Assembly (NCBI GenBank): GCA_030523325.1
Contig: JAUNIS010000010.1
Location: forward strand, 1-64,000
Origin: Phascolarctobacterium sp.
Lineage (GTDB): Bacteria; Bacillota; Negativicutes; Acidaminococcales; Acidaminococcaceae
Direction: 5' to 3'
Length of the DNA: 64,000 nucleotides
The first letter of the stretch is position 1. Each line of letters opens with the position of its first letter. The notes under the pieces are model-generated. The model searched no databases and was not told where the DNA came from. It saw nothing but the letters and a program-made list of their open reading frames with translations. Shown here piece by piece: positions 26,673 through 42,693 of this stretch. The translations under genes and the position numbers were made by a program.

Positions 26673-26740
26673 AAAATGTATAGTAGGGGCGGTGTTTCTG
26701 TTTTTACTATCATTAAAATTAAATATTATTGGATGATGAT

Positions 26741-26875
26741 ATTGGGAGAGCTCATTTATAATGACACCGAAGGGGAAGCAAAAACTCTCAGGTTCCAGGA
26801 CCGATATCGGACAAACTCTGGAAAGCTGCGTCAAGCAGCACCGACGATGTTAATCTTTCAGGTAAAAGGACAGAG
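26741..26875 (+). promoter_or_regulatory. Tandem glycine riboswitch
   Basis: Aptamer 1 starts ggagag at 26,745 and contains acaccgaaggggaagca, aactctcaggt, and the aggacc...ggacaaactctgg closing part. Aptamer 2 continues with ctctggaaag, gcaccgacg, aatctttcaggt and aaaggacagagg. These conserved blocks and their tandem order are diagnostic of the gcvT-type glycine riboswitch. The 3' strand of aptamer 2 P1 overlaps the 5' arm of the following terminator. Glycine binding should therefore prevent termination and switch on the cleavage system. Confidence 0.93.
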
Positions 26876-40498: not shown

Positions 40499-40512
40499 TT
40501 TTAACAAGTAGC

Positions 40513-40550
40513 AAAAAATCACGAACCTTTTAGGGCTCGTGATTTTTTGT
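40513..40550. terminator. Bidirectional terminator between convergent tyrS and cysE
   Basis: aaaaaatcacga / tcgtgattttttg form a long stem with A and T runs on either side, usable in both directions. Confidence 0.88.
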
Positions 40551-41471
40551 TTAATCGCGTTTTTGAATTTGCAGTTCAGGAACGTAAGGAGAAACTCTTG
40601 TGTTCTCTGGGATAGAGTAAGTAACGAAGGTGTTACCTGCGATGACGGAGTTTTTACCAATAATTGTTTCGCCGCCAAGAATTGTTGTGTTGGAATAAAT
40701 GACGACGTTGTCACCGATAGTAGGATGACGTTTCTTGCCTGAAAGCTCTTGACCCTTAATGGTGGAGAGAGCACCTAAGGTAACGCCTTGATAAAGCTTA
40801 ACGTGATTGCCAATCTCACAGGTTTCGCCGATTACGATGCCCGTTCCATGGTCGATGTGAAAATATTCGCCGATGACTGCACCTGGGTTAATATCAATAC
40901 CTGTTTTGCTGTGAGCAAATTCTGTCATGATGCGAGGGACGAAGGGAACATTTTCTTGATAAAGAATATGCGCGATTCTATAAACAAAAATTGCGTACAG
41001 ACCCGGATAAGAGAAGATAACATCCTCCAAGCTTTGAGCTGCAGGGTCACCATCAAAGAGAGCTTGCACATCTTTTAGCAACATTTTTTGTACCTTAGGA
41101 AGCTCTTCAAAAAATTTAAAGGTTGTCTTTTCGGCCATTTCTTCAATTTCTTTCAAGCTTGTAGCAATGGGTTCCCTGCCATTAGCAAGAAGCTTTTGAT
41201 TTTGAAACATGAAGGCAATACGAATTTGTTTATAAAGCTCTAAATAAATTCCTGCCAAGGTGTTGCCTGCAAAATTATCAAGAGAGACGTAGGCGATGTT
41301 TTCAGTTCCGAAAAAACCAGGGAACATGACGCGACGGATTTCGTTGATAATCTCGACAATGGCAGCTCGCTTAGGTAATTTCATACCGATGCCAAGCTCA
41401 AAAATGCCTTGCTCTTTATAATTTTCTTCTAAGAGCTTTGCGGTCTCGTTAATTCTATCTTTAATATTCAT
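40551..41471 (-). CDS. cysE: Serine O-acetyltransferase
   Basis: Makes O-acetylserine from serine and acetyl-CoA, the first step of cysteine synthesis. A 306-residue protein with the helical N-terminal domain (about 1-170) and a C-terminal left-handed beta-helix of hexapeptide repeats. The active-site region is FAHSKTGIDINPGAVIGEYFHIDHGTGIVIGETCEIG. The N-terminal domain is longer than in E. coli CysE, as in the SATase branch of anaerobes. It lies 12 nt downstream of cysK and is probably controlled by the same leader. Confidence 0.93.
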   Translation of the reverse strand: MNIKDRINETAKLLEENYKEQGIFELGIGMKLPKRAAIVEIINEIRRVMFPGFFGTENIAYVSLDNFAGNTLAGIYLELYKQIRIAFMFQNQKLLANGREPIATSLKEIEEMAEKTTFKFFEELPKVQKMLLKDVQALFDGDPAAQSLEDVIFSYPGLYAIFVYRIAHILYQENVPFVPRIMTEFAHSKTGIDINPGAVIGEYFHIDHGTGIVIGETCEIGNHVKLYQGVTLGALSTIKGQELSGKKRHPTIGDNVVIYSNTTILGGETIIGKNSVIAGNTFVTYSIPENTRVSPYVPELQIQKRD

Positions 41472-41483
41472 TGTCTTCCTCGC

Positions 41484-42419
41484 TTATTCTTCGACAAAAA
41501 GTGGAGTGGAGTAATAGCGATCGCCACTATCAGGCAATATTACGACGATGGTTTTGCCGGCATTTTCTTCTCGCTTAGCAAGCTCAATGCCTGCCGTCAG
41601 TGCTGCGCCAGAAGTAATGCCTACGAGAATGCCTTCTTGTTTTGCCAAAAGCTTAGCATTGCTGAAAGCTGCTTCGTTTTCAACGGCGATGATTTCGTCG
41701 TAGATTTTCGTATTCAAAAGTTTGGGAACAAAATTGGCTCCAATACCCTGGAGTTTATGAGGACCTGCGTATCCTTTGCTTAAAAGAGGAGAAGACGCTG
41801 GTTCAACGGCGATGATTTTTATGTTAGAATTTTTTGTTTTTAAGTATTCGCCTATGCCTGTGATTGTTCCGCCGGTACCAATGCCAGCAACTAAAAAATC
41901 TACTTGACCATCCGTATCTTGCCAAATCTCAGGACCGGTAGTTTGACGGTGAGCTTCGGCATTGGCTTGGTTTTCAAACTGCCCAGCAATGATGCTGTCA
42001 GGAATATTTTTTTGCAGCTCTTCTGCTTTAGCAACTGAACCAGCCATACCTTGAGCACCTGGGGTAAGAATAATCTCTGCGCCATAAGCTTTTAAGATGT
42101 TAATTCGTTCTACACTCATCGTATCTGGCATGGTAAGAATTAATTTGTAACTGCGAAAAGCACTGATAGATGCAAGACCAATACCCGTGTTGCCACTTGT
42201 TGGCTCGATGATAGTGGAGCCGGGCTTTAAGAAACCTTTAGCTTCCGCGTCCTCGATAATAAATTTCGCTGCACGGTCCTTAATGCTACCTGCAGGATTC
42301 AAATATTCAAGCTTTACTAAAAGTTTAGCCTTGAGACTTTGACTCTTTTCGATATTAGTAACCTCCATCAAAGGAGTGCGGCCGATAAATTCAGTAACAT
42401 TTCGGTAAATGTTTGCCAT
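41484..42419 (-). CDS. cysK: Cysteine synthase A (O-acetylserine sulfhydrylase)
   Basis: A 311-residue PLP enzyme that forms cysteine from O-acetylserine and sulfide. K47 in NPAGSIKDRA binds PLP; the substrate loop TSGNTG and GTGGTITGIGEYLK for phosphate binding are present. The ATG at 42,419 follows ggagg; the longer frame (25 extra codons) runs into the leader and is rejected. First structural gene of the cysK-cysE operon. Confidence 0.95.
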   Translation of the reverse strand: MANIYRNVTEFIGRTPLMEVTNIEKSQSLKAKLLVKLEYLNPAGSIKDRAAKFIIEDAEAKGFLKPGSTIIEPTSGNTGIGLASISAFRSYKLILTMPDTMSVERINILKAYGAEIILTPGAQGMAGSVAKAEELQKNIPDSIIAGQFENQANAEAHRQTTGPEIWQDTDGQVDFLVAGIGTGGTITGIGEYLKTKNSNIKIIAVEPASSPLLSKGYAGPHKLQGIGANFVPKLLNTKIYDEIIAVENEAAFSNAKLLAKQEGILVGITSGAALTAGIELAKREENAGKTIVVILPDSGDRYYSTPLFVEE

Positions 42420-42472: not shown

Positions 42473-42508
42473 AAAATAAAAAATCCGGGGGCAAATTTTA
42501 CTCCCGGA
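42473..42508 (-). terminator. Attenuator terminator in the cysK-cysE leader
   Basis: On the minus strand, TCCGGG and CCCGGA (with one extra G-U pair) form a stem with a loop of about 12 nt. The U-rich run TTTTTTATTTTTA follows. It lies about 50 nt before the cysK start, between promoter and SD. Confidence 0.88.
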
Positions 42509-42580
42509 ATAGAAATGTCGATTTTATATCAACAAGAAGGCGTGTCGAATAATTACGACTTGTCCTTTCACCCAGGAGTA
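42499..42580 (-). promoter_or_regulatory. Predicted antiterminator of the cys leader
   Basis: The RNA segment UACUCCUGGG (42,571-42,580, last codons of the leader peptide) can pair over 10 bp (eight Watson-Crick, two G-U) with UCCGGGAGUA (42,499-42,508). The latter includes the whole 5' arm of the terminator, so the two structures exclude each other. Confidence 0.65.
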
Positions 42581-42633
42581 GAACAGCGCATACAACACAA
42601 GCTACAATTTTGTTGACAAGTGGTTTTTTGCAT
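42568..42633 (-). CDS. Cysteine-rich leader peptide of the cysK-cysE operon
   Basis: A 21-codon frame with ATG at 42,633 and TGA at 42,568-42,570. It is preceded at 8-nt spacing by a strong SD, AAGGAG. Five of 21 residues are cysteine (positions 6, 10, 13, 14, 17; core TTCQQNCSLCCMRCSTPG), far above the usual frequency. It is the only open frame between the promoter and the attenuator. Ribosome stalling at the cysteine codons would leave the antiterminator arm (codons 18-21) free. Completing the peptide would cover it. Too short and too near the terminator to be an ordinary protein gene. Confidence 0.8.
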   Translation of the reverse strand: MQKTTCQQNCSLCCMRCSTPG

Positions 42634-42664
42634 GACTGTTGCTCCTTCCCGAATTATTGCTTTG

Positions 42665-42693
42665 AGTATACACCTGAAAATTTATGGAGTCAA
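42665..42693 (-). promoter_or_regulatory. Promoter of the cysK-cysE operon
   Basis: Minus strand: TTGACT, 17-bp spacer, TATACT. A transcript from about 42,658 carries the leader peptide and attenuator, a leader of about 240 nt. Confidence 0.8.

Follow-up and report, generated by a model that had tools for sequence, protein, structure and literature searches.

A predicted cysteine-codon transcription attenuator ahead of cysK-cysE in a Phascolarctobacterium genome

We have identified, ahead of the cysK-cysE operon of a Phascolarctobacterium species (Negativicutes, Acidaminococcaceae), a leader that very probably acts as a ribosome-mediated (trp/his-type) transcription attenuator reading Cys-tRNA(Cys) through tandem Cys codons. 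The operon lies in the 64,000-nucleotide stretch of DNA analyzed here (the window), which is contig C32 of a 2.39-Mb draft genome. Cysteine genes of the Bacillota are usually described as being controlled by CymR, T-boxes or S-boxes. The mechanism itself is already known, from the trp and his operons and in cysteine versions from cysS of Rhodobacterales and from mycobacteria; what is new is the case in the window. The target of the leader, an operon for cysteine synthesis, counts in favor of a cysteine attenuator.

All of the leader elements sit on the minus strand between positions 42693 and 42473 and were checked base by base. The promoter, Shine-Dalgarno (SD) sequence, 21-codon Cys-containing ORF, 10-bp antiterminator and terminator proposed by the first-pass annotation, together with the two genes that follow, are all confirmed there. 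They are listed below in the order of transcription, with the corresponding features of G006, a metagenome-assembled Phascolarctobacterium genome from horse faeces (JAKSOJ010000082.1) that belongs to the same genus as the window.

42665-42693, minus strand: promoter TTGACT-17-TATACT (promoter scan 10/12); hexamers and spacing identical in the G006 orthologue
42642-42647, minus strand: Shine-Dalgarno sequence AAGGAG of the leader ORF; conserved in G006; predicted to pair with the antiterminator arm in untranslated RNA (1:2)
42568-42633, minus strand: SD-preceded leader peptide ORF of 21 codons, MQKTTCQQNCSLCCMRCSTPG and stop; Cys at codons 6, 10, 13, 14 and 17
42618-42616, 42606-42604, 42597-42595, 42594-42592 and 42585-42583, minus strand: Cys codons of the leader ORF, all TGT
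42571-42580, minus strand: region 2, the 5' arm of the antiterminator (UACUCCUGGG), in leader codons 18-21; G006 shares its first nine bases
42544-42559, minus strand: spacer hairpin GUCG-UAAUUAUU-CGAC between the antiterminator arms; retained in G006 with one G-C pair changed to G-U
42516-42534, minus strand: second spacer hairpin UGUUGAU..AUCGACA; in the same place in G006 as UUGCUAA..UUGGCAA, with different pairs
42499-42508, minus strand: antiterminator 3' arm (region 3), UCCGGGAGUA, including the entire G+C part of the terminator 5' arm
42473-42508, minus strand: intrinsic terminator with its stem at 42508-42484 and a U-rich tail reaching 42473; CUCGGG..CCCGAG and UUUUUAUUUUUU in G006
41484-42419, minus strand: cysK, cysteine synthase A (TIGR01139, 432 bits; cut-off 351)
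40551-41471, minus strand: cysE, coding for an EpsC/CysE-type serine O-acetyltransferase whose N-terminal part is long (TIGR01172 score of 161 bits, short of the 210.65 cut-off)
40512-40549, minus strand: terminator with a 16-pair stem, closing the cysK-cysE operon

The two genes are separated by 12 bases. Region 2 is complementary to region 3 over 10 pairs, two of which are G-U, and the mutual exclusivity that had been claimed for antiterminator and terminator is borne out both by the overlap of region 3 with the terminator 5' arm and by folding. The 188-nt leader transcript folds more stably than its shuffled versions (z -3.6), as does its 3' half after the ORF (z -3.8). Among the 272 SD-preceded mini-ORFs of the window, the leader ORF has the highest Cys density of any longer than eight codons. 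The leader combines three hallmarks of a trp/his-type attenuator: a leader ORF, predicted to be translated, with clustered codons for the end product (five Cys, tandem at 13-14), an intrinsic terminator between leader and first gene (42484-42508 plus the U-run) at which termination is predicted, and an exclusive antiterminator whose 5' arm only a ribosome that has moved beyond the control codons would mask, as indicated by the shuffles and the computed switch of three leaders described below.

We infer from this arrangement that the ORF is translated, that ribosomes stall within it, that transcription terminates in the cell and that cysteine is the signal. RNA polymerase would start at the conserved promoter and a ribosome would start on the leader. 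With ample charged tRNA(Cys) the ribosome would get beyond codons 13-14 and cover region 2 at codons 18-21, leaving region 3 to pair with region 4, and transcription would end some 55 nt short of the cysK start codon. With uncharged tRNA(Cys) the ribosome would stall with Cys10, Cys13 or Cys14 in its A site and its leading edge just short of region 2, which would then be free to pair with the emerging region 3 and allow read-through by the polymerase into cysK-cysE. In RNA that is not translated, pairing of the leader SD with region 2 may favor termination as the default state.

The behavior of the switch was modelled by folding only the RNA downstream of a ribosome footprint set at each codon. 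In all three leaders to which this was applied (the window leader, its G006 orthologue and a second, paralogous G006 leader) an A site at codons 10-14 gives the antiterminator and an A site from codon 16 onward gives the terminator. Setting the A site at codon 14 gives 8.6, 8.9 and 9.5 expected antiterminator pairs for window, orthologue and paralogue, respectively, and near zero for the terminator; from codon 16 the expected terminator pairs are 7.0, 6.7 and 6.0-7.0, with the paralogue remaining mixed at codon 16 and completing its switch at codon 17. The tandem Cys codons sit just ahead of this flip point. The model therefore predicts that Cys13 and Cys14, with Cys10, are the effective sensors and that Cys17 comes too late, which fits the loss of Cys17 in G006. 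The claim that a ribosome finishing the peptide masks the antiterminator arm and brings about termination agrees with the appearance of the terminator from codon 16. Stalling at the early Cys codons, also part of the first-pass annotation, stands for Cys13/14 with Cys10 but not for Cys6, where a stall has opposite outcomes depending on whether pairing across the ribosome is allowed in the model; Cys17 is both too late and not conserved. If the model permits pairs to form across the ribosome, the window leader switches sharply at codons 13-16 and is mixed at codons 9-12, and the G006 orthologue favors the terminator at nearly every codon. We judge such pairing of the leader SD with region 2 across a stalled ribosome to be unlikely.

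Complementarity between ORF and arm of the observed extent was reached in 5 of 5000 dinucleotide shuffles for the window (one of these five in the right place), in 126 of 5000 for the orthologue and in 4 of 5000 for the paralogue. The competing structures are nearly isoenergetic in both orthologues (-27.1 and -26.5 kcal/mol in one, -29.4 and -29.6 kcal/mol in the other), as a switch would show. In free RNA the SD pairs with region 2 in both orthologues, with a mixed ensemble for the window, and the G006 paralogue favors the antiterminator.

Conservation in relatives, the absence of which had been named as refuting the proposal, was looked for, and the outcome does not refute it. Among six congeneric genomes only G006 carries the cysK-cysE unit (CysK 89% and CysE 87% identical), and a search with CysE of 84,980 species genomes gave no further relative above 65% identity over any segment. 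This sole other carrier keeps the peptide core, the arm and the terminator, along with the promoter, SD and spacer hairpins. Its leader, MMKNTCCQNCRLCCMMRFTPGQESKSF and stop, aligns with that of the window over codons 1-21 with no indel and 48 of 63 bases identical; codons 8-15 are nearly invariant (22 of 24 bases) and the surrounding codons vary. No base differs in Cys codons 6, 10, 13 and 14 or in the arm ACTCCTGG, and the core common to both peptides is CxxNCxLCCMxxxxTPG. The G006 ORF extends six codons beyond the arm, which would thus be left uncovered by a ribosome that has reached the stop codon. In a structure-based alignment the terminator stems, UCCGGG..CCCGGA in the window and CUCGGG..CCCGAG in G006, differ by two compensating pairs, a by-eye reading of two sequences; an ungapped MAFFT alignment shows these pairs as broken because it is out of register there. 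Support from covariation is thin because there is a single orthologue in the genomes searched. When 380 genomes of the class were searched with a peptide profile, only the window genome and G006 gave significant matches; those weaker matches that were inspected lacked an SD-led start or fell within other genes. Three matches to the peptide-core pattern in a search of the family (L034, L035 and L036) were rejected as chance since they lie inside or against other genes.

Cys-run leaders also precede second cysK copies in both genomes. The second CysK of G006 is 68% identical to that of the window and has a different leader, MYRTSDKMSNMCCCRMLNSRTYQYGQVHSSTLCCACTCF and stop, in which UCCCGGACA directly follows the CCC run and shows perfect complementarity to the 5' side of a downstream terminator. 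In all three leaders (window, G006 orthologue and G006 paralogue) the tandem Cys codons end at codon 14 and the antiterminator arm starts at ORF nt 53-54. Since two cysK copies with different peptides share an identical geometry, spacing and not peptide sequence is the apparent constraint. The paralogue ORF (L068, on G006 contig C80) continues for 18 codons after the arm, and a second Cys cluster, STLCCACTCF, immediately precedes its stop codon. The second cysK of the window genome (L067 and L229; contig C61, 9968-12900) has a Cys-run leader as well, with the order leader (MKKLAYEFLKAKFYSGRMCCC and stop), cysK, an Rrf2-family remnant cut off after about 28 residues, iscS and iscU. For the leader peptides of these two paralogous cysK copies, a search of 63 genomes of the order yielded no convincing relatives, and a pattern search of the window genome for more Cys-run leaders gave nothing convincing.

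This recurring geometry bears on two other ways of reading the ORF, both of which would place its function in the peptide. The ORF might encode a functional Cys-rich microprotein that binds a metal or a thiol, with a separate terminator that is unregulated or leaky; its core CxxNCxLCC is conserved between two species and such spacings are known in metal-binding peptides. We regard a microprotein as very unlikely given that the conserved TPG codons overlap the antiterminator arm, that Cys17 is not kept and that the paralogue has the same geometry with a different peptide (MYRTSDKMSNMCCCRMLNSR...). Additionally, there is no homologue beyond the pair in 380 genomes of the class and no NCBIfam match. 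Alternatively, the nascent peptide might arrest the ribosome in the manner of SecM, TnaC or Erm leaders and sense cysteine or another thiol directly instead of tRNA charging, in keeping with its Pro-Gly end and with conservation of the non-Cys residues Q8, N9, L12, M15, T19, P20 and G21. However, the RNA arm accounts for T19-P20-G21, the paralogue shows this geometry although the residues flanking its Cys codons are unrelated, and tandem Cys codons stand exactly where a codon-specific stall is required, all of which make a peptide-based arrest exceedingly improbable.

Control of the operon by a known riboswitch or T-box-like element, with the small ORF incidental, has a probability that we consider close to negligible. 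T-boxes and S-boxes do precede other cysteine genes of the Negativicutes (L025, L075), but in the window the ORF and the pair of mutually exclusive arms occupy the leader space. No T-box covariance match to the leader was obtained with a tool that detected T-boxes in relatives, nor did the leader match the S-box model RF00162, which was found before another cysK (L075). A permissive Rfam search of the leader returned chance matches only, and a search of the window gave no family at threshold except a glycine riboswitch elsewhere. The latter is an ordinary aptamer at 26733-26813 on the plus strand, upstream of the glycine cleavage genes gcvT, gcvH and gcvP.

The attenuator thus supported, which applies the trp/his logic to cysteine as the first-pass annotation had it, draws on ordered and exclusive parts, an orthologue, a paralogue of the same geometry and a computed switch. 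Like the trp, his, leu and thr attenuators of enteric bacteria, it has regulatory codons just upstream of region 2, exclusive 2:3 and 3:4 pairings, a candidate 1:2 pairing and an intrinsic terminator. It differs from them in that its codons are Cys, that region 1 is the leader SD itself and not peptide codons, and that two independent hairpins lie between regions 2 and 3. A 2020 study by Canestrari, cited in PMC13236596, is reportedly experimental work on mycobacterial polycysteine leaderless ORFs, going by its title. For uORFC-8-2, upstream of cysS in Rhodobacterales, attenuation by Cys-tRNA has been proposed on the basis of tandem Cys codons 14-15 and an intrinsic terminator (PMC8632094). 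The window leader works alike, with tandem Cys codons in a leader ORF followed by an intrinsic terminator, but is not a member of that family: it stands before cysK-cysE in a Negativicute and has no Rfam match, whereas uORFC-8-2 belongs to Alphaproteobacteria, targets Cys-tRNA synthetase and has its Cys codons in the first stem and not, as in the window, preceding the antiterminator arm (PMC8632094). Candidate cysteine leaders of Actinobacteria, preceding the cys operons of Mycobacterium and P. acnes and the cbs gene of Bifidobacterium, are likewise Cys-codon ORFs controlling cysteine genes; their Cys runs are near the stop codon and, with no conserved terminator, Rho was suggested (PMC1262725). 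The window leader differs from these in its SD initiation and its intrinsic terminator/antiterminator pair. Classical attenuation also occurs in some Bacillota, long seen as T-box territory, in the form of His leader-peptide attenuators whose target is histidine genes, and a survey reported none in Negativicutes (PMC9413887). A search confined to the open-access literature, with subscription journals outside its scope, found no cysteine attenuator in Negativicutes. The earlier statement that no attenuator of this layout had been described in that class holds to this extent, but the logic was already known for cysteine in other phyla.

Leaders with Cys codons are found before cysK across the family. 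SD-preceded mini-ORFs with Cys in the last four codons occur in 13 of 41 cysK upstream regions of the family, which come from related genomes and are non-independent, whereas 40 shuffle sets averaged 2.8 and never exceeded 6. Most of these ORFs end in Arg-Cys-stop, Arg-Cys-Cys or a similar sequence, with a nearly invariant CGA TGT and no obvious terminator, and they are very short and mostly 55-110 nt ahead of cysK (loci L007, L008, L009, L012, L014, L015, L025, L028, L069, L178, L180 and L181). For example, the peptides MKFSHHTRRC, MFNEDYVFRC and MHKGKRCCN are each followed directly by a stop codon. These leaders resemble those of Actinobacteria more than the window leader does. Outside cysK, genome-wide matches to the Arg-Cys-stop pattern are chiefly chance, and one good-looking match (L210) has no cysK downstream. 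Sequestration of the SD was modelled as a mechanism for these leaders and showed no consistent effect.

We tentatively propose, with slightly less than even confidence, that Cys-codon leaders are a family-wide and repeatedly remodelled form of cysK control in Acidaminococcaceae, comprising classical terminator attenuators at two Phascolarctobacterium cysK copies and a mechanistically distinct Arg-Cys-stop class (CGA TGT TGA) with no terminator. In the latter class, cysteine may be sensed at the stop codon or beside it through an undescribed mechanism, whether Rho-dependent, translational or based on stop-codon-proximal stalling. Just before cysK at locus L022 (genome G008), an ORF read as the end of an Rrf2-family regulator gene finishes with QKCRCCK and a stop, with the same CGATGT; it is possible that a full-length gene there closes with a Cys run of the leader kind. 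In other members of the class, an S-box or an element with no Rfam match stands before cysK, and in one genus of Acidaminococcaceae a T-box does. Eight loci of other Negativicutes families (L030, L031, L071, L072, L076, L077, L081 and L082) have a conserved GCTGATCAG-(n3-5)-CTGAAGGCYAAGG upstream of cysK, followed by a terminator-like partner CCTTRGCC and a T-run. This element, which has no Rfam match, is possibly an undescribed cis-regulatory RNA.

The leader of cysK-cysE adds, for a gut Negativicute, a compact, predicted example of cysteine attenuation coupled to translation. The prediction is precise to one codon, in that Cys14 should work and Cys17 should not, and the design recurs at two cysK copies with different peptides and identical geometry. 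The family-wide Arg-Cys-stop leaders are a more novel lead than the cysK-cysE attenuator itself.
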